DNA from: Magnetococcales bacterium
Lineage (GTDB): Bacteria; Pseudomonadota; Magnetococcia; Magnetococcales; JADFYX01
Length of the DNA stretch: 52,968 bases
Assembly: GCA_002753565.1 (NCBI GenBank)
Contig: PEAM01000030.1
Span: 1 to 52,968, forward strand
Reading direction: 5' to 3'
Of this stretch, positions 27,017 through 39,720 are shown one piece after another. The notes beneath the pieces were generated by a model that saw only the letters and a program-made list of their open reading frames with translations, ran no database searches and was not told the DNA's origin. The position numbers and the translations under genes were made by a program. The number at the start of each line of letters is the position of its first letter. Within the stretch, counting starts at the first letter, position 1.

Positions 27017-29557
27017 CTACCGGTTGGTGAAGCTGTAGGCAATGACCGCCGTGGCATAGCCTCGAAGGGGCGACGGCACATGCACGGCGCTGTACTCTTC
27101 CCCATAGGCCACCTTTTTACCGATGGGCTTGCCATCGGAATCCACCGCCTCAAACGGGGTACCGGTTTGGAACGGTTTGGCCACCGTATAGGTCAGGGTA
27201 TTGCGAACTCCCAACTGAATCCGTTCATCACCCAGATCCACACCCGGTGCGTTGGTGGAAAAAGCGGGAATGGCCTTGATGGAGGAGAGATCACCCTGAC
27301 TGGTGGTATCGGCCCCATCCCGTTTGGCCGAGGCGGAATAGGTCTCGGCGTTGGTGGCCTTGTCGTTCAATACTGGGCTCATCAACATGTAGTCGGGCAT
27401 GACATAACGATCGGCGGACATCATCGCCTTACGCGCCCCAACCGACCGCAACAGACCGTTCATATGAACCTCTTCTGTCGTATTGGCCGGCAGATCCAGA
27501 TCGAACTTGGTGGCGTTGGTCGCATAGCTGTAGGAGATAAAATCATCCCCCGCCGAGGCCGCAGGAGTAACCGGCGTACCAGTCTCATCCACATACTGGA
27601 TGTAGCCCAGGTTGTAGTTGGTTATCCGGTAATAGGTTCCAGCCCCTTGGGTAATGGCCGGGTTGTAGAGGGAGAGAGCCACCGAGTTGAGTTGAACCAC
27701 CAGAGGGTTCTCCTCACTACCGACCGCCTGGCCTTTCAAATTCCGCACCTGGTGAGAACGGACGATAGGATACTGGGCCGACTTGACGATGCTTACCGTC
27801 GTACCGTTTAGCTGGCCGGAAATATCCTCATCGCTGATATCCATTGCCCCGAACTGATCGGAAACTCGCTGCAGCTCGTTGCAAATCCGCCGGACAATCA
27901 ACTCCCGAATGATCCGGGCGTTGGAGGCGACGTTTCGGGCATAGGCGTCCCAATCGATGGCACTGGAGCGGGAGAAGTGAATCACCTCGTTGGAGATCAA
28001 CAATGCCAGTTTCATCGGCAGGATGTAGGCAAAATCCATCTCCTGAGAGACCCCAGCCTGTTGAATGGCCTGGCCTTCAAAGACAATACCATCACCGACT
28101 GAAGCCGGAAGATTGCGTTGTTCGTAGGGAATATTGGTGGTCTGAGTGGCGGTAAAATCGGTCAAGGTCTGGACCAGTTCCAGCACTCGCAGATCGTGGA
28201 GGGCCTCACGGATGACGGTCCGGGTGAATCCGGCCGGTAGGTTGGTATCACCGATGCCGGTTTCGCCACCGGCCAGCATCTTCTGCTCCAGCTCCAAACG
28301 TGGGGCGTTGATCCGGTCGTACTCCGACAGCACCTTGGCGACGAACGGATCGATATCCTTGGCCAATCGCAATCCACCACCGGAGAATACCGCAGAGAGT
28401 TTCAGGGCATCGTTGATCCCCTCTTGTAGCTTGACGATGCCGGATTGGGAATCGGCACTGATTCGAACCGTACCCTGAGAGGCACTATCGTATCCCATGG
28501 CGGCGAGCTGCTGGGTGGACTCCATTTCCTGACCGAGTTGAATCTGATTTTCGGCCAGGGCGATCACTTGCGCCTCATCCATACTGGCCGTCACCAGGGA
28601 GACCGCAGCGGAAAGTCTCTTCCGGGTATTCTCCGATAGCCCCTCAGCATCGGTAATCAGCTTGCTGAACTGCCCTTGACGGGTTTCCAAATCCTCAGAG
28701 AGTTTTTTCGATGCGGCATCCTGTTCGGCCAGCTCTTTTTTTACCAGTTCCGCCACGATGGTTGAGTCGCTCTCCGGGGCCACCTGATTAATCGAAAGCT
28801 GTATGGTTGGCGGTATGGCCGTTGACTCGGGTTGTAGCTCACTCAATTGCGTGGCCGCATCGGACAACTGTTTGACCAGGCTTTCCAGCATGGTTTCGTC
28901 CGACTCGCTCAGTTGCTTGGCGGCCTTTTCGAATCCAGCCAGATAGCTTTCGATCGCCTCCTCGGAGAGTTTCAGCCCTTCCAACTTTTTACGCAGTTGT
29001 CCCAGATACTTTTTCATCGTTTTTGTGTCCTCTTCGGAGAGTGTTTTTGCCAATTCAGGGGGTATGAGACAGTGGGAGTCGGTGCATCGCTCTTCTTGGG
29101 AAAGCGTCACCTGATCCAGATTTTTCACCCGGGGCCGAACGGTCAAACCGGCGCCCATCAAGGTACAGCCGTGTTTTTTACCGGTTTCGGGATCGGGGTA
29201 GTTTTCGTGGTAGTCGGCGGAGAGATAGTGGAAACCGCGTTTTTGAATCGCCTCCACCCCGTAGTCGGTCCAAGCCACCTCGGCCCGCAGGCGGTTTTTC
29301 TCGACAAACAGCTTTTCAACAAATCCCGCTGCCCCTTCCGAATGGCGATGGGCAACATCGATGGCGATCTTCTGACCGTAGGTGTTCTCGGTAAAATTTT
29401 TTACCATCCGGTTCAACATGGCGCGGGTAATCTTTACCTCGCCATACCAGGAGTCGGCAAAGGTCACCACTCGGGTGAGAGTGACAGTAGATTTTTTCGA
29501 CCCGTCAGCCAGAGTGATGGGGCGTTCGGAGAGAATTCTTTTTTTCTTACCGGCCAT
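27017..29557 (-). CDS. Fused capsid protease, scaffold and major capsid protein
   Basis: This 846-aa protein combines three modules. Residues 1-175 resemble Mu protein I, the head maturation protease (IAIDVAHRHSEGAAGFVEKL, VAWTDYGVEAIQKRGFHYLS). Residues about 180-370 are Glu/Gln/Ser-rich and helical, as in scaffolds (LRKKLEGLKLSEEAIESYLA, QLSDAATQLSELQ). Residues about 390-846 look like a major capsid protein (FTRTVIREALHDLRVLELVQ, NLPASVGDGIVFEGQAI, DWDAYARNVASNARIIRELI). No separate capsid gene exists in the late region. The polyprotein presumably cuts itself after shell assembly. Confidence 0.8.
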   Translation of the reverse strand: MAGKKKRILSERPITLADGSKKSTVTLTRVVTFADSWYGEVKITRAMLNRMVKNFTENTYGQKIAIDVAHRHSEGAAGFVEKLFVEKNRLRAEVAWTDYGVEAIQKRGFHYLSADYHENYPDPETGKKHGCTLMGAGLTVRPRVKNLDQVTLSQEERCTDSHCLIPPELAKTLSEEDTKTMKKYLGQLRKKLEGLKLSEEAIESYLAGFEKAAKQLSESDETMLESLVKQLSDAATQLSELQPESTAIPPTIQLSINQVAPESDSTIVAELVKKELAEQDAASKKLSEDLETRQGQFSKLITDAEGLSENTRKRLSAAVSLVTASMDEAQVIALAENQIQLGQEMESTQQLAAMGYDSASQGTVRISADSQSGIVKLQEGINDALKLSAVFSGGGLRLAKDIDPFVAKVLSEYDRINAPRLELEQKMLAGGETGIGDTNLPAGFTRTVIREALHDLRVLELVQTLTDFTATQTTNIPYEQRNLPASVGDGIVFEGQAIQQAGVSQEMDFAYILPMKLALLISNEVIHFSRSSAIDWDAYARNVASNARIIRELIVRRICNELQRVSDQFGAMDISDEDISGQLNGTTVSIVKSAQYPIVRSHQVRNLKGQAVGSEENPLVVQLNSVALSLYNPAITQGAGTYYRITNYNLGYIQYVDETGTPVTPAASAGDDFISYSYATNATKFDLDLPANTTEEVHMNGLLRSVGARKAMMSADRYVMPDYMLMSPVLNDKATNAETYSASAKRDGADTTSQGDLSSIKAIPAFSTNAPGVDLGDERIQLGVRNTLTYTVAKPFQTGTPFEAVDSDGKPIGKKVAYGEEYSAVHVPSPLRGYATAVIAYSFTNR

Positions 29558-29730
29558 CAGGTCTCACCCTCTTCCCTGCCATCCCATTTGATGGCGCGGA
29601 TGATCTTATGCAGTTGCAAAAAGATGATGGGAATGGAAACCACGGCACAGATCGTCCAGAGCAATAGATACTTGTCATCCATCGAGACAATTTCCTTCAA
29701 AACTTCCGCAATGGTGGTATACTTCTCCAC
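29557..29730 (-). CDS. Small single-pass membrane protein before the capsid gene
   Basis: The 57-aa product (MEKYTTIAEVLKEIVSMDDK at the start) has one membrane segment (YLLLWTICAVVSIPIIFLQL) and a short charged tail. It starts with GTG, 8 nt after an AGGAG site. Its stop overlaps the capsid start as TGATG, so it is the first gene of the capsid unit. No family is recognised. Confidence 0.6.
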   Translation of the reverse strand: MEKYTTIAEVLKEIVSMDDKYLLLWTICAVVSIPIIFLQLHKIIRAIKWDGREEGET

Positions 29731-29761
29731 GTCACATTCTCCTATTCAGGGTGTGGCCAAT

Positions 29762-29799
29762 ACCGTCGGAGTCCGGCAAGACTCGCGACGGTTTTTTTG
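29762..29799 (+). terminator. Rightward-oriented hairpin and T-run
   Basis: ACCGTCG (29762-29768) pairs with CGACGGT (29786-29792), extended by GAGT/ACTC inside, and seven T follow. It is oriented to stop rightward transcripts, for which no gene is seen immediately upstream. It may protect the leftward late units from antisense reading. Confidence 0.6.
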
Positions 29800-29828
29800 T
29801 CTTTGGGGCAGTGGATCAAATGTAGGTG

Positions 29829-29850
29829 GACAAAATAAGGGCAGAGTGTG
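29829..29850. repeat. Late-unit motif, copy 1
   Basis: GACAAAATAAGGGCAGAGTG plus TG is identical to copy 2, 70 bp away, and 19 of 22 bases match copy 3 at 37898. About 30 bp before the motif are also similar between copies 1 and 2, indicating an imperfect tandem duplication. It lies upstream of the capsid unit. Confidence 0.8.
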
Positions 29851-29898
29851 GCCAAACCCTTTTTTCCACCTTTGGGGAAGTGAAGCAAAGAAAGGACT

Positions 29899-29920
29899 GA
29901 CAAAATAAGGGCAGAGTGTG
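29899..29920. repeat. Late-unit motif, copy 2, with inverted-repeat ends
   Basis: This copy is flanked by ACTGACA at the left and TGTCAGT at the right, a 7-bp inverted repeat with a 16-bp centre, typical of a protein-binding site. It lies between the terminator of antirepressor cassette 3 and the leftward capsid unit. Confidence 0.8.
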
Positions 29921-29930
29921 TCAGTAGCGA

Positions 29931-29961
29931 AAAAAAAGCCCCGACCGAGGAGAGTCAGGGC
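29931..29961 (-). terminator. Terminator of antirepressor cassette 3
   Basis: On the minus strand GCCCTGAC (29961-29954) pairs with GTCGGGGC (29945-29938) with one T.G pair, flanked by AAA and TTT, and followed by a T-run. It lies about 30 bp after the end of the cassette 3 genes and would end their leftward transcript before the capsid unit. Confidence 0.85.
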
Positions 29962-29991
29962 TTTGGGTGGGGTGTTGAGGGAAGAAGCGAA

Positions 29992-30231
29992 TCAGGTAAT
30001 CATATCGCGTTTAAGCCGTTCCAGATCTCGGACGGCCATCCACAGTGTATCGTCGGCATCCTCCAAGGCGATGGCCAGATGATCCGCCGACCAGACCACC
30101 TTATCCAGGTCTTCAATGGCCTGGGCCAGGGTAATCTGGGCTTTGATGTGTTTCCGCTTTTGGTTCAATCTCCGGATGGAGCGACTGACAAGACGTTTTC
30201 GTGTTCGGGGATGAAGGGAACCGTTCATCAT
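29992..30231 (-). CDS. Small cassette protein downstream of antirepressor 3
   Basis: The 79-aa protein is basic and helical (RKRLVSRSIRRLNQKRKHIK, then a C-terminal WMAVRDLERLKRD). It is a distant homologue of the small protein in cassette 1: both share an MN..LH start, RSI/RSL.RL, a W.A/W.S..L core and RDLE.+K. The start overlaps the antirepressor stop (TGATG). Retention of a diverged second gene in the same place suggests a joint function with the antirepressor. Confidence 0.65.
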   Translation of the reverse strand: MMNGSLHPRTRKRLVSRSIRRLNQKRKHIKAQITLAQAIEDLDKVVWSADHLAIALEDADDTLWMAVRDLERLKRDMIT

Positions 30232-30782
30232 CACACCCCCAACCCATCCAGCACCAACTGCTCGCCTTCACTCCCCAGTAAGGCCAGATCCGGCAGAGGT
30301 TCCCGAAGCATTTTGCTGACACGGGCCAGATCATCTAACAGACCCCGGCGGACAAAGCTGTCCTTTATTTTAGCCAGATCGACCAGAATGGTTCTACGCA
30401 GCTTGGTCAACTCGATCTTCTCTTTGAAGGTCAACTCCTCCGGTTGGCAAAAATCCCAGACAAAGGCGGCAATCTGCTGTTTCATCTCCTTGGCTTTCTC
30501 GGTCTGGGACTCCATGCAGATGAGGAGGAAGCCGATCGGGTGATACACAGAAACATCCCGTTTTTTGCCGTCAACTGTAATCAGGTTGATTACAGTTGCG
30601 TACTCTTCGATGTACGGATTTCGCTCCAAAAGTGTACTGATGGAAATGCGAGGTTCAGCATATTCCAGCCATTCACCTATGGCTTGCCGGGTGGCGTGGG
30701 GAACAAAATTAACCCACAAAACCTGATTGAGTTGGATTTCACCCCAGGAAAGGGGTTCCGGTTGGGTTTGAACAGTATTCAT
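30231..30782 (-). CDS. Antirepressor-like protein, cassette 3
   Basis: The 183-aa protein is closely similar to the cassette 1 protein through most of its length (QPEPLSWGEIQLNQVLWVNF, VYHPIGFLLICMESQTEKAK, ELTFKEKIELTKLRRTILVD). The main differences are in the segment around TVINLITVDGKKRDVS, the likely specificity region. This copy runs in the same direction as the late genes. The start at MNTVQTQPEP is used because it aligns with the other copies and lies 8 nt after GGAG. Confidence 0.7.
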   Translation of the reverse strand: MNTVQTQPEPLSWGEIQLNQVLWVNFVPHATRQAIGEWLEYAEPRISISTLLERNPYIEEYATVINLITVDGKKRDVSVYHPIGFLLICMESQTEKAKEMKQQIAAFVWDFCQPEELTFKEKIELTKLRRTILVDLAKIKDSFVRRGLLDDLARVSKMLREPLPDLALLGSEGEQLVLDGLGV

Positions 30783-31006
30783 GATCACTTCTCCGCTTTC
30801 TATGCGGTTGACAGCCGCAGGATTGCGGGCTGCCGGGAGCTAGAAACCGTGAAGTTAACGGCGGGATTATTTCCCCGAGGGGTATTCTATTCTCCGCACT
30901 CCCGACAGACAGACGGCACCGTAACATAAGTACCGGAAAGCGGACACAAAAATACCGCTGGACTGACGGGAGCGGATACCGAACTTCAGGGTGTTTCTAG
31001 CACCTG
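30783..31006 (-). ncRNA. C4-like structured leader RNA, cassette 3
   Basis: This is the most diverged leader, yet its stems are kept. 30810-30834 forms GACAGCCGCA/TGCGGGCTGCC where copies 1 and 2 have TTCACA/TGTGA. 30847-30850 pairs with 30858-30861 as CCGT/ACGG where the others have CCGC/GCGG. The Shine-Dalgarno hairpin is 30793-30807. These double changes are compensatory. TCCGCT at the leader start can pair with AGCGGA of the ribosome site. Confidence 0.65.
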
Positions 31007-31012
31007 AGAAAG

Positions 31013-31041
31013 ACCCTACACCAAAAAAAATGGCCTGTCTA
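31013..31041 (-). promoter_or_regulatory. Promoter of antirepressor cassette 3
   Basis: On the minus strand TAGACA (31041-31036), 17 bp and TAGGGT (31018-31013) correspond to the promoter boxes of cassettes 1 and 2. The preceding GAAAAACGAAC is conserved. Confidence 0.65.
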
Positions 31042-31121
31042 GTTCGTTTTTCCTTGTGTGGGAGGCGAAGTAGAGAGAGGGTGACAAAAGTTGATTTTCT
31101 GTGTGAGGTATAAAAACAAGC

Positions 31122-31403
31122 ATGGCTCGCAAACCAATACCAAAAGAACTCACCTTGGCTGGGGCGAACGCCAAACGGCTTGCTCAACACAAGGCTGTTT
31201 GTAAAGCCGCATTGGAATCCTTGAAGAAGGATGATTCGATTGATCGTGTTGAGATCATCCCTGCCCATCCTGATAGTGCTTGCCCGGAATGTAAAAAAAT
31301 CCATGGCATTTATCCAATAGAAACAGCTCCACTGTTGCCCAACTCCAACTGCACAAATGACTGGTGTGGTTGTTATTACATGGCGGTTTTTGCCGATGAA
31401 TAA
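31122..31403 (+). CDS. Small zinc-binding protein of a rightward moron set
   Basis: The 93-aa protein is basic at the start (MARKPIPKELTLAGANAKRL). Its cysteine-rich end (HPDSACPECKKIHGIYPIE, PNSNCTNDWCGCYY) is similar in pattern to the C-terminal part of phage head morphogenesis proteins. Here it stands alone and on the opposite strand to the late genes. It is the first of three rightward genes starting near cassette 3. Function is unknown. Confidence 0.6.
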   Translation: MARKPIPKELTLAGANAKRLAQHKAVCKAALESLKKDDSIDRVEIIPAHPDSACPECKKIHGIYPIETAPLLPNSNCTNDWCGCYYMAVFADE

Positions 31404-31405
31404 AG

Positions 31406-31783
31406 ATGAATAAAACAGATCTACATGCGCCATTCTCGGAGGAAATGGTCAGGAACCTTGAAAGATCAAACTCTCCCGGAGGTCTGGATAAAGGTGATTT
31501 TGCCGAGCTACTTCGAAGGCCAGTCTTGGTTGAAGCCATCATCTCCGAACACAAGAACTTCCGAAAGAGGCGTAGAGAAGGGGAAAAGGCAATCGAACTG
31601 GATGAAGAAGATGTCAAGCAATTAATCCGGGATTATCTGGAATCTGACGAGCCAGGATGGCCGGAATTTAGTGTTTGGGCAAAGGAGTACGTCAAAGATC
31701 CCAAGACCGAAAATCCCGTTCATGTGGAGAAGGTGTTGGAAGGTTTTTTTCAATATGCGATTGATCGAATTGCTGACAAATAA
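31406..31783 (+). CDS. Hypothetical charged protein
   Basis: The 125-aa protein is highly charged and helical, with KNFRKRRREGEKAIELDEED in the centre and VEKVLEGFFQYAIDRIADK at the end. It begins 3 bp after the zinc protein stop, so both are cotranscribed. I recognise no family. Its location suggests lysogenic expression as a moron. Confidence 0.6.
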   Translation: MNKTDLHAPFSEEMVRNLERSNSPGGLDKGDFAELLRRPVLVEAIISEHKNFRKRRREGEKAIELDEEDVKQLIRDYLESDEPGWPEFSVWAKEYVKDPKTENPVHVEKVLEGFFQYAIDRIADK

Positions 31784-31787
31784 GCAA

Positions 31788-32117
31788 ATGTGGCGGAGCC
31801 TTGAGGGGTTCTTTATTTTGAACGGAAAATTCCGAACTCTTCTTCTCTTTCTGGTAGTTTTCTGCCTGCCAATTGAAGGATTGGCGGAAACGACAATCCT
31901 TCATATCGAAAAATCCAGTTATAGCTGGCACGCTCGGGTTACCGTCAGGGTGCCAGCCGATATTCCCTTAAACTACTGGGTAGCATGTGACTATTATGAT
32001 CATCAAGGGAACATTATTGCCAGTACAAATCACGGCTTGCTGAAACGAACTCCGACCTGGTCGGTTAAAGCCAAACCGGAAGATATTGTATCCGCCAACT
32101 GTTATATACCGAGATAA
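31788..32117 (+). CDS. Secreted hypothetical protein
   Basis: The 109-aa protein has a clear signal peptide (GKFRTLLLFLVVFCLPIEGL, with AE at the probable cut), followed by a beta-rich domain (YSWHARVTVRVPADIPLNYW, then CDYYDHQGN) ending in CYIPR. The mature domain has a conserved-looking Cys pair. It starts 5 nt after the previous gene. A secreted prophage-encoded moron could alter the host envelope. Confidence 0.6.
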   Translation: MWRSLEGFFILNGKFRTLLLFLVVFCLPIEGLAETTILHIEKSSYSWHARVTVRVPADIPLNYWVACDYYDHQGNIIASTNHGLLKRTPTWSVKAKPEDIVSANCYIPR

Positions 32118-32129
32118 GTAGAACTGGTT

Positions 32130-32801
32130 CTATTTTATACGATTTGGTAGCACTTTTCTAACTACAAGCCGATACCCCACCCCCCGTACCGTTTCAATCA
32201 CCCCGGCCCCCAGCTTTTTCCGGATCCGGGAGACAAACGTCTCGATCAGGTTGCTGTCATGGTCGAAAGATTCGTCGTAGAGATGCTCGATCAGTTCGGT
32301 GCGGGAGATCACCCGGCCCGGGTGTTGGAACAGGTGAGCCAGTAGGGCGAACTCCTTGGGGCTAAGGGAAACCGGCTGGCCGCTCCGGATTACCCGGTGG
32401 CCGCCAAGATCCACCACCAGACCGCCATGCTCGATCGGTAACGGAACCGGTTCCCGGGGTCGACGTTGAAGAAGGGTGCGCACCCGAGTCAGCAGGCTAT
32501 CGAAGGAGAACGGCTTGGGAACCCCCTCGGCCCGTCCGGCCATGGCCAGAATCATCGAGTGGTCTCTACCGGCCATGGCGGAGATCGCCGTAGCCGCCAT
32601 ATCGCACTCCCGCCATTGGACGCCATCAAACGCCAGAGCCAACCGGCCATCGAGCAAAGCGAAATCATAGGGACAGTTTTCCGCCAGATGAGAGCCCGAC
32701 TCCCCATCCCGAACCCAATCCACCGCAAACCCGGCCTGTTCCAGACCGGTCGCAACCGATTGCGCCAGCAATGTATCCGGTTCCGCCAGAAGCACTCTCA
32801 T
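32130..32801 (-). CDS. OmpR/PhoB-type response regulator with degenerate receiver
   Basis: The 223-aa protein has a receiver-like domain (1-114) and a complete winged helix of the QseB/PmrA type (SPKEFALLAHLFQHPGRVIS, ETFVSRIRKKLGAG, IETVRGVGYRLVV). In the receiver the phosphoacceptor Asp51 (FALLDGRLA) and the Lys in VPKPFSF are present. One of the paired acidic residues is Pro (LLAEPDT), the conserved Thr/Ser is Ala, and about 17 residues before the KPF motif are missing. No histidine kinase lies nearby. It sits among phage head genes, so it may be a phage transcription regulator working without phosphorylation. Confidence 0.85.
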   Translation of the reverse strand: MRVLLAEPDTLLAQSVATGLEQAGFAVDWVRDGESGSHLAENCPYDFALLDGRLALAFDGVQWRECDMAATAISAMAGRDHSMILAMAGRAEGVPKPFSFDSLLTRVRTLLQRRPREPVPLPIEHGGLVVDLGGHRVIRSGQPVSLSPKEFALLAHLFQHPGRVISRTELIEHLYDESFDHDSNLIETFVSRIRKKLGAGVIETVRGVGYRLVVRKVLPNRIK

Positions 32802-32824
32802 GGACCACCACTCCTCCCACCCGG

Positions 32825-33913
32825 TTACCAATCCTTGGTGTCAATTCCCCGTTTATTGTACCGTTTTTCCAGTACTTGCCAAGGCGTGGCAATCTCCCCT
32901 TTGACCAGGATCCCCTTCTCCAGTGCCGCTCTTTTCTTTACGCTACCCAGTACACCGACCTGTACTTCCGGTTTTTGCTTTTTCAACCAGCCGACCGGAT
33001 CCTCCTTCCCCTTTTTATCCGACTCGCTCACCTCATCCTTGAACACTACCTCGACAAAGGAGAGGGTAAAGGGATGGGCTGGCCAGGGGCATTTCTCCCG
33101 GCTGGGATAGACACCGGGACCGAGGCCGTACAGATTGGCTGAAGCATGAAGATCACAAATATCGGCGCGAGGATGGCGGGGAGAAAGTAGAAATCGAAAC
33201 CCGGCCACCTCCGGATCGGCCTCGGCACCGGCCATGTAGGCTTCGCCGTGGGCCCGGTTGATCTCGGTGCGCATCACCCGCAGGGTGTTGAACCAGGGAG
33301 AACCGACCTTTCCGGTCAGGACCTCTCCGGCGCTGCGTGCGATTTTTCCGCCGGTGCTCTTGGCCAACTGATCCCGTACCAGCTTCGGGACCCTCTCTCC
33401 ACGCTCCAGAAAGGCAGTCGCGGCTTGGGCCGCCGAATGGCCCTGAATCACCGACGATTCTACGGCACGGGTCACCACCTCCCGAGCTTGGCGATCCACC
33501 CGCCACAGCCGGTCGGAAAGCCGTAGACCGTCGGCAGCTGTGAAGTGACGAACAAACCGCACCGCCTCCTCAGCCACTTTCGGCATGGCAGCCGCTTCCA
33601 TTTCCACCAGAGGGGAAACCCCGAGCTGGGCCGCCTCCCGTAGATTTTTCGTAAGCAGACCATCCCGTTCCCCAGCCAAATCGGTCAATCGGCGGTTGAC
33701 CTGGGCGAGCAGATCCCGCAACACCTCCAAGCGGAGATTCTCCTCCTCATCCCCGTACCCCCGGATCGCCGCCTCGATGTCGGCACTGGCCGCTCGGTAG
33801 ATTCGGGTCAAATTCTTCTCCATCTCCCGGTCCAACCGTCCCATCCTTTTCCGGGCGGCCTGGGAGGCCCGGCGGATCGCCGCCTTGTTGATGGTCCGTC
33901 TGTTTCCACTCAT
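32825..33913 (-). CDS. Mu gpF-like head morphogenesis protein
   Basis: The 362-aa protein has the conserved block of phage minor head proteins: RVMRTEINRAHGEAYMAGAE, LLSPRHPRADICDLHASANL and KCPWPAHPFTL. The N-terminal half is helical with many charged residues. It overlaps the portal stop as ATGA, as in Mu-like and SPP1-like head modules, where the protein enters the procapsid with the portal. The C-terminal 60 residues are basic and specific to this phage. Confidence 0.85.
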   Translation of the reverse strand: MSGNRRTINKAAIRRASQAARKRMGRLDREMEKNLTRIYRAASADIEAAIRGYGDEEENLRLEVLRDLLAQVNRRLTDLAGERDGLLTKNLREAAQLGVSPLVEMEAAAMPKVAEEAVRFVRHFTAADGLRLSDRLWRVDRQAREVVTRAVESSVIQGHSAAQAATAFLERGERVPKLVRDQLAKSTGGKIARSAGEVLTGKVGSPWFNTLRVMRTEINRAHGEAYMAGAEADPEVAGFRFLLSPRHPRADICDLHASANLYGLGPGVYPSREKCPWPAHPFTLSFVEVVFKDEVSESDKKGKEDPVGWLKKQKPEVQVGVLGSVKKRAALEKGILVKGEIATPWQVLEKRYNKRGIDTKDW

Positions 33914-37897: not shown

Positions 37898-37919
37898 GAC
37901 AAAATAAGGGCGGGGTATG
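37898..37919. repeat. Late-unit motif, copy 3
   Basis: GACAAAATAAGGGCGGGGTA plus TG matches copies 1 and 2 at 29.8-29.9 kb except for three bases. It is flanked by ACTGACA and TGTCAAT. It lies 26 bp upstream of the terminase unit on the leftward strand, so all copies precede late transcription units. Confidence 0.8.
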
Positions 37920-37942
37920 TCAATCAGCGCAACAAAGGCAGG

Positions 37943-38449
37943 CTATTTCATCAAAATCCTGTAAACGGAACGCCATGTAATCGACATACCGAATTGATTG
38001 ACGCTACAGGCGATCAATTCTTGGAGGGTAGCCCCTTCAGCCGCCATGGTCCTCAAGACCTGATTGCGTTGTTGCCGAACCAGGCGAGAGAAAAGCGGAA
38101 TGGTGATACGGCTGTTTTCCCGACCACCGGTATGAAGGTTTTTCCGATCGAGTATCCGCCATATCTTTAAAAAATCCTCATACCCCACTGTTTCGGCGAT
38201 TTCGATCCAGCAGGGATTCAGCCCCAACTGTTTAAGCTCCCGGATCCTAGGGTCGTTTCCCGGATCGGGTTTCAAAATGGTGCAGATATCCTGGTACCCA
38301 CCCCCCCTGAGGGGAGAGGAGGTATCCTCCTGCCGACCCCCCACCCCAGCCCCAGAACCCCCTTCAACCGGTGATTCTTTCGGTTCTACTTCGCTTTCCA
38401 AGTTCACCGGCCCTCCCTCATCCCTGTAAATACGCCACTCCACCACCAT
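37943..38449 (-). CDS. Possible HTH regulator at the head of the late region
   Basis: The 168-aa protein has a low-complexity acidic first half and a helical second half ending in RQQRNQVLRTMAAEGATLQ, ELIACSVNQFGMSI and TWRSVYRILM. That ending resembles the C-terminal HTH of Mor-type activators, although similarity is weak. It is upstream of the terminase unit. The start at MVVEWRIYRD is chosen because GTAGGG lies before it; a longer frame to 38560 begins with a Gly-rich segment of doubtful coding value. Confidence 0.5.
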   Translation of the reverse strand: MVVEWRIYRDEGGPVNLESEVEPKESPVEGGSGAGVGGRQEDTSSPLRGGGYQDICTILKPDPGNDPRIRELKQLGLNPCWIEIAETVGYEDFLKIWRILDRKNLHTGGRENSRITIPLFSRLVRQQRNQVLRTMAAEGATLQELIACSVNQFGMSITWRSVYRILMK

Positions 38450-38652
38450 CCCTACTTCGCTTATTGTGAAAAGGCGAACTGGGAACTGTTTTTGGTAATT
38501 GGACGGTTTTGGCCGTTTTGTAACAGAGTTCCCACCCCCACCGCACCCGCCCTTCCCCACCCGGTTTTAAGCCATTCCTGATTTTTCCCAAATACCGGCT
38601 ACTAGAGTTCTCGGAACTTGGAGAAGAAAGGGAGCACACCAAAGCCACCACT

Positions 38653-39720
38653 TCACAACTGCCCCAGCAACTCAGAAACCGGAGTCTTTACCCGGCCCAA
38701 CGGTCCAGCCCGATCCATCTCTTTGGCCAACTTGCGAGAGGCCAAGTGAGTATAGATGGCCGTGGACCTAGGATCCTCATGCCCCATCAATGTTTGCCGG
38801 ACCAATAAGTCCACATCCTTTTCGGCCAACTCCGTACCAAAGAGGTGGCGCAAAGCATGCGGATGGCACTGGTCAGGAGGAAGGCCCGCCAATCCTCCTC
38901 GATTCCTGATCATGTTGTGCACCGACCTGGAAGAAAGACGGCGGGCCTCCCCATGGAACTTATCCGCCGTGACTCTTCGATTCCTCAAAGAGACAAACAG
39001 AACCCTGTCCCCACTCGGCAAAGCGCGGTCCACTTCTCCAAGATCCGGATGGCCAAGGTAAACGTGAATCAGAAGACGGGCCTCATGAGGCGCTGGAACA
39101 ACTCTCTCCTTTTTGCCCTTCTCGGTCACCCTGACCAGCATTCTTTCCTTACCGTCTTCGATGGGAAAGCTCAGATTCTCCTGATTCATGGAAATTAACC
39201 CACTCACCCGCAATCCGCATCCCATCAAGATGGCAATCATGGCCGCATCCCTGGCACCAGCCAGGGTGGAGATATCCGGCTGCATCAACAGAGCTTCAGC
39301 ATTGGAAAGAGCCATGGGAATGGGCAGTTTTTTGCCCGCTTTCGGGTATGGTAATCGGATGGCCGGGTCAGATCTGATTTTACCTTTTTTGAAAAGCCAA
39401 CCATAGAACCCACGAACAGCAGCGACCAAAGCATGGCGGCTACGAGGGGAAAGCCCCTGCTGGTGAACAAACGGCCCAGAGAACGTTTCCAGATCCTCAT
39501 TGGAAGCAGACAGAACGGGGCGCCCGTCCAGAAAATCAATCAATCGGTGCAGATATCCCCGGTATTTCCGTATCGTCTCTTCAGACTTTCCCTCATTGGC
39601 AATTTTGAACGTCAACCAAGCCTCGATCAAATCCAAATCCTGGGGCGTTCCTTTTTCAGATTGAGGGGGGAGGGGCATATAATCAACCGCACAATTGGAG
39701 TAAAAGCCTGTCAACGGCAA
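38653..39720 (-). CDS. XerC/XerD-like tyrosine recombinase
   Basis: The 355-aa protein has an N-terminal SAM-like domain (LIEAWLTFKIANEGKSEETI, RKYRGYLHRLIDFL) and a full catalytic domain: Arg in LMGCGLRVSGL, Lys in VTEKGKKERVV, His-x-x-Arg in HPHALRHLFGTEL, LMGHEDPRS, and Tyr in TAIYTHLAS. This is the Xer pattern rather than that of a lambda integrase. It is the gene closest to attR and the third tyrosine recombinase of the element. Dimer resolution after replication is a possible role. Confidence 0.88.
   Translation of the reverse strand: MPLTGFYSNCAVDYMPLPPQSEKGTPQDLDLIEAWLTFKIANEGKSEETIRKYRGYLHRLIDFLDGRPVLSASNEDLETFSGPFVHQQGLSPRSRHALVAAVRGFYGWLFKKGKIRSDPAIRLPYPKAGKKLPIPMALSNAEALLMQPDISTLAGARDAAMIAILMGCGLRVSGLISMNQENLSFPIEDGKERMLVRVTEKGKKERVVPAPHEARLLIHVYLGHPDLGEVDRALPSGDRVLFVSLRNRRVTADKFHGEARRLSSRSVHNMIRNRGGLAGLPPDQCHPHALRHLFGTELAEKDVDLLVRQTLMGHEDPRSTAIYTHLASRKLAKEMDRAGPLGRVKTPVSELLGQL

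Follow-up and report, generated by a model that had tools for sequence, protein, structure and literature searches.

A prophage of a Magnetococcales bacterium carries, among its head genes, the gene for a response regulator of the OmpR/PhoB class (hereafter RR). It is probable, in our judgement, that RR is cargo captured from the host and that it acts as a constitutive DNA-binding regulator, predicted to be independent of phosphorylation. The novelty is moderate: atypical response regulators are already known, and what RR adds is one carried as cargo by a prophage. If this reading is true, a kinase-less regulator with a selectively decayed receiver would offer a phage a simple route for freeing a host regulon from the control of its sensor, and the prophage gene would let nature's own experiment show how a response regulator comes to work without phosphorylation. 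Coordinates are given in Table 1; "the window" is the whole stretch of DNA that was analysed (52,968 nucleotides).

Table 1. Features of the prophage region, with positions in the window, strand and basis.
Feature	Position	Strand	Basis
Protease/major capsid gene, right border of cargo slot	27017..29557	-	Mu-like_Pro 7.4e-10, phrog_22848 4.6e-14
Cargo slot holding RR	29558..32824	.	Comparison with related phages
Late-operon motif copy 1	29829..29853	-	2 mismatches to pattern
Late-operon motif copy 2	29899..29923	-	Pattern search
Atypical OmpR/PhoB response regulator (RR) gene	32130..32801	-	ORF, domain and homology searches; 223 aa
Winged-helix DNA-binding domain of RR	32163..32432	-	Residues about 124-213; Trans_reg_C match
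Pseudo-receiver domain of RR	32466..32801	-	Residues 1-112; Glu7-Pro8, Asp51, Ser74, Lys96; 5-residue deletion; DDY to AEG
Head-morphogenesis gene, left border of cargo slot	32825..33913	-	phrog_1657 1.1e-33
Possible promoter TTGGCA-16-TACAAT	32855..32882	-	Consensus match only; inside 3' end of head gene
Late-operon motif copy 3	37898..37922	-	Pattern search; just before small terminase gene

The regulator gene and its receiver

The RR reading frame is intact and begins with an ATG at position 32801; a random sequence of equal composition would stay open for as many codons with a probability of about 0.002, and an open frame by chance is unlikely. The start lies 23 bp past the end of the head-morphogenesis gene and is preceded by GGGAGGAG, a plausible ribosome-binding sequence. 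The putative promoter, 53 bp 5' of the start, matches the consensus at 10 of 12 positions, a quality of match that would be expected 0.006 times in 100 bp; a search for a terminator gave nothing convincing. The G+C content (59.8%, versus 60.1% for the head gene) is not unlike that of the neighbouring phage genes, and the codon usage resembles that of the phage late genes.

An earlier note on this DNA, made from the letters alone, had described the DNA-binding domain as complete and of the PmrA/QseB type. The completeness is borne out by the Trans_reg_C match (E 5.5e-25; 87.7 bits against a Pfam cut-off of 26.2), which ranks fourth by score among the nine such domains in the genome. The type holds only loosely, and membership of the PmrA or QseB equivalogs of NCBIfam was rejected on scores of 100.4 bits against 330 and 107.1 bits against 345. 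The Response_reg match, at 23.5 bits, falls below its Pfam cut-off of 30.2. Homology spans residues 1-213, and the solved structures matched by the sequence are OmpR/PhoB response regulators over their whole length. An AlphaFold model built from a 31-sequence alignment has the expected two-domain fold (pLDDT 75), although its confidence is low for the latter half of the receiver.

The residues of the receiver were checked in an alignment with 104 homologous response regulators (105 sequences in all). Four of the five catalytic residues are kept (Glu7, Asp51, Ser74 and Lys96), the Asp and the Lys just as the earlier note had read them. It was also right about the acidic pair, the second residue of which is Pro8 in RR and Asp in 102 of the 104 relatives. 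Two of its other readings have to be corrected. The switch residue is not Ala; the position is occupied by Ser74 (Thr in 96 relatives, Ser in 8), which stands at the end of strand beta-4 in the model, and the Ala call must have been a misalignment, because Ser74 precedes the Lys by 22 residues, exactly the spacing found in all 104 relatives. Likewise, the deletion put at about 17 residues amounts to five, missing between Asp51 and Ser74, the distance from Asp51 to Lys96 being 45 in RR versus 50 in 98 of the 104. Further changes are Ala55, where the relatives have Pro; the loss of the DDY motif, with Ala91 and Glu92 for the two Asp residues (each present in 104/104) and Gly93 for the Tyr (103/104); and Ser82 and Ser102, which replace an Arg/Lys-Glu pair (103/104 each). 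Within the alpha4-beta5-alpha5 face, the salt-bridge positions 82, 91, 92 and 102 have all lost residues that 103 or more of the 104 relatives share; Arg106 and Arg113 are kept. The main damage to the receiver, as read from this alignment, is the change of Asp to Pro at the Mg2+-binding position together with the loss of DDY and of the Lys/Arg-Glu pair. RR is the only one of the 105 proteins in which the receiver is less conserved than the DNA-binding domain (a difference of -0.10, compared with at least +0.03 in all the others).

A pseudo-receiver has been defined as a receiver lacking any one of the five catalytic residues; the second acidic residue, DD2, is a direct ligand of the metal, and in about 80% of pseudo-receivers this position is not acidic (PMC12632262). 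Since this residue is missing from RR, its receiver is, by that definition and on its sequence, a pseudo-receiver, which makes RR an atypical response regulator. With the two corrections above, the earlier observation stands in its main lines, and its interpretation is partly supported.

The earlier note had also seen no kinase gene nearby. A profile search for HATPase_c indeed gave no match in the window or its contig and 92 elsewhere in the genome, which has dozens of kinases overall. A cognate kinase gene close to an OmpR/PhoB regulator is usual, not obligatory. We infer, with good support, that RR would function independently of phosphorylation, because it lacks the Asp that ligates Mg2+, has no kinase gene in its vicinity and combines a decayed receiver with a preserved DNA-binding domain.

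The slot between the head and protease/capsid genes

The prophage belongs to a phage family that is recognised by its terminase, portal, head and protease/capsid genes and that has members in IMG/VR as well as Microcystis phage vB_MaeS-yong1. The order in the family is small terminase, large terminase, portal, head gene, cargo slot and protease/capsid. RR lies between the head-morphogenesis and the protease/capsid genes, among the head genes as first proposed, and is the first gene of a 3.3 kb slot, in the orientation of the head operon. The slot also contains plus-strand genes (31122-32117) at a lower G+C content (45%) and in the orientation opposite to the late genes, one of them rich in Cys and another containing a stretch that resembles a signal peptide. 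The product of the protease/capsid gene is a protein of 846 aa in which a Mu-I-like protease is joined to a capsid-like C-terminal region (phrog_22848), an arrangement conserved at full length in the relatives. The prophage has two tyrosine recombinases (38653-39720 and 132-1163), and the XerC-like recombinase before the terminase genes is 47-50% identical to the relatives' copies.

In 94 distinct relatives, the equivalent slot measures from 0.1 to 6.3 kb (median 1.4 kb) and its contents are unrelated: small zinc-ribbon proteins, lipoprotein-like proteins, a transposase, methyltransferases and a reverse transcriptase, with open reading frames that match the PD-Lambda-1, DNA methyltransferase, reverse transcriptase, AbiC-like and ParE-like families. 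The slot is a hypervariable cargo hotspot. Examples of equivalent slots are those of L168, L173, L186, L221, L240 and L292; the defence-like genes in the slots of relatives are of the PD-Lambda-1, PDC-S13/S20, reverse transcriptase, methyltransferase, AbiC-like, ParE-like toxin and Aca2-like kinds. Small Com-like zinc-ribbon proteins recur (L112, L115, L121, L128 and L133), a loose pattern for them being matched in 34 of the 94 slots. Phages of this widespread family share a cargo site that can be mapped, and several of them carry defence-like genes there.

A search for the gene in related phages, which the earlier note had called for, found no OmpR-type regulator in any of the 94 slots and no OmpR-type match in 168 loci. 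Response-regulator-like matches in L179 and L241 are not of the OmpR type and were rejected: one is a receiver-GGDEF protein, the other a different multidomain receiver protein, and both lie at a distance from the slot, probably in host flanks. Direct searches of viral contigs, with RR by itself and with RR plus its two closest kin, gave no relatives, and a portal search gave no second copy of the prophage in the host's order. RR is like a moron or cargo gene in being situated between conserved phage genes and absent from relatives; its base composition does not set it apart from the neighbouring phage genes.

Origin and proposed action of the regulator

The tree neighbours of RR are a response regulator of its own genome (contig C84, 55305-55964), which is 46% identical to it, and one from another family of the same order. 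The grouping has an SH-aLRT of 87 (not starred), and the end branch of RR is long (1.62). The motifs AENC[PS]YD and HLYD..FD.DSNLI are common to RR and these two neighbours and are not general in the set. The nearest kin of RR are ordinary response regulators of the host's own order; an SH-aLRT of 87 on a long branch weakly supports an origin from them. The C84 regulator lies close to a histidine kinase gene and a solute-binding protein gene.

RR looks to have been captured from the host lineage, and the capture looks old because the G+C content and codon usage of the gene match those of the phage late genes. The earlier note had named as its refuting case a recent insertion of a host gene that no related phage carries and that is silent on induction. 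This is half borne out: none of the related phages examined has the gene, but the long branch together with the late-gene-like composition argues against its being recent.

The proposed course of events is as follows. A response regulator of the host lineage would have been taken into the cargo slot long ago and cut off from any kinase; the Mg2+ site of its receiver would then have disappeared, along with the greater part of the dimer face that depends on phosphorylation, the winged-helix domain staying conserved. Expression of RR would rely on the late head transcript, with the predicted promoter of the gene as a possible second source. It more likely binds as a monomer, or dimerises only on DNA, because the alpha4-beta5-alpha5 face is mostly lost. 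Its targets would be promoters, most plausibly host promoters related to those of the parent regulator. The contacts made by PhoB-type regulators with bases are the basis for reading the residues of the recognition helix, where RR has S191-R192 and the C84 regulator has H-K; this related, not identical, helix suggests a specificity that overlaps with that of C84 but is altered. A direct-repeat site common to the prophage and the regions upstream of the C84 and G017 regulators was sought, and nothing convincing was found. Reprogramming of host promoters by RR, an idea already in the earlier note, is possible. A stronger version, in which a kinase-blind RR overrides a host two-component system by occupying or activating the promoters of the parent regulon whatever the state of the sensor, in lysogeny or late infection, is tentative and, on balance, rather unlikely.

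Another possibility, put forward from the start, is that RR is a phosphorylation-independent late activator, which would bind a motif before two late operons and turn on the head and tail genes. Its independence of phosphorylation agrees with the receiver as described above; its role as late activator is very improbable. In favour of such a role, RR is located in the late region, and of the only three copies of a 25-bp motif, TGACAYACYCYGCCCTTATTTTGTC, in the genome, two precede the protease/capsid operon and the third precedes the terminase operon. However, the motif reads as an interrupted inverted repeat, and OmpR-type regulators mostly bind direct repeats. Moreover, RR is itself encoded within one of the operons that it is supposed to activate and occurs in no relative, yet relatives with the same two-operon layout have their own motifs common to the regions upstream of both operons (GCACGCTTTCCCGTTGAC and CCGCACACGGTCAT, with the same spacing, in L113 and L135, and CAACTTAGTGCTCTTTTTTGACC in L132), so a two-operon switch has no need of RR. 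A small protein whose gene immediately precedes the terminase genes (37943-38560) is conserved in four relatives (L116, L128, L131 and L132) and is no weaker a candidate for the late regulator. Its helical C-terminus is modelled with high confidence and it belongs to no known family; its predicted helices looked similar to those of the Mor/C family, but a Mor/C-like fold was rejected, since neither Pfam nor a comparison with PDB folds gave a match (best E 0.41).

RR might instead be a decaying passenger, a captured host regulator that has no present function and is still open by chance. The long branch, the decayed receiver, the absence from relatives and the lack of a known target would all fit, but the decay is limited to the receiver, the score of the DNA-binding domain being on a par with those of functional host regulators; the small chance of an open frame, the late-gene codon usage and the plausible ribosome-binding sequence speak against it too, and we consider this explanation unlikely. 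Finally, RR may still be phosphorylated by a host kinase, or its receiver may sense something else. With Glu7, Asp51, Ser74 and Lys96 all in place, residual phosphorylation is possible, and the genome does not want for kinases; however, Pro stands at the metal-binding position, and both the DDY motif and the salt-bridge pair are gone, and we consider this reading very unlikely. Captured cargo with phosphorylation-independent DNA binding is the reading we prefer.

Comparison with known systems

On phage-encoded response regulators, nothing on point was found in the literature searched. The best phage protein family for RR is PHROG 731 (E 2.4e-35, residues 1-213), which has no assigned function. 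The phage records MW462191, MW091529, prophiGD05-1 and Stenotrophomonas phage Bhz63 contain OmpR-type regulators, as here; unlike RR, each of these has an intact receiver and an adjacent gene for a kinase or kinase-like sensor. The C84 regulator resembles RR most closely by the tree and in the AENCPYD and HLYDETFDKDSNLI-like motifs that both possess, but its receiver is canonical (E7 D8, D51, Thr, Lys, DDY).

HP1043/HsrA of Helicobacter and ChxR of Chlamydia are atypical OmpR/PhoB response regulators that are active without phosphorylation (PMC8345958, PMC3960148). Like RR, they are orphans that combine the OmpR/PhoB architecture with a degenerate receiver and an intact winged helix, and the structure of HP1043 (2hqr) matches RR both by sequence and by model. 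There are also differences: ChxR lacks the phospho-acceptor Asp, whereas RR keeps that Asp and loses a metal-binding residue; HP1043/HsrA and ChxR dimerise via alpha4-beta5-alpha5, the key residues of which are mostly lost in RR; and both are chromosomal, whereas RR is borne by a prophage. By analogy, the action of RR is most likely comparable in principle to that of HP1043 and ChxR.
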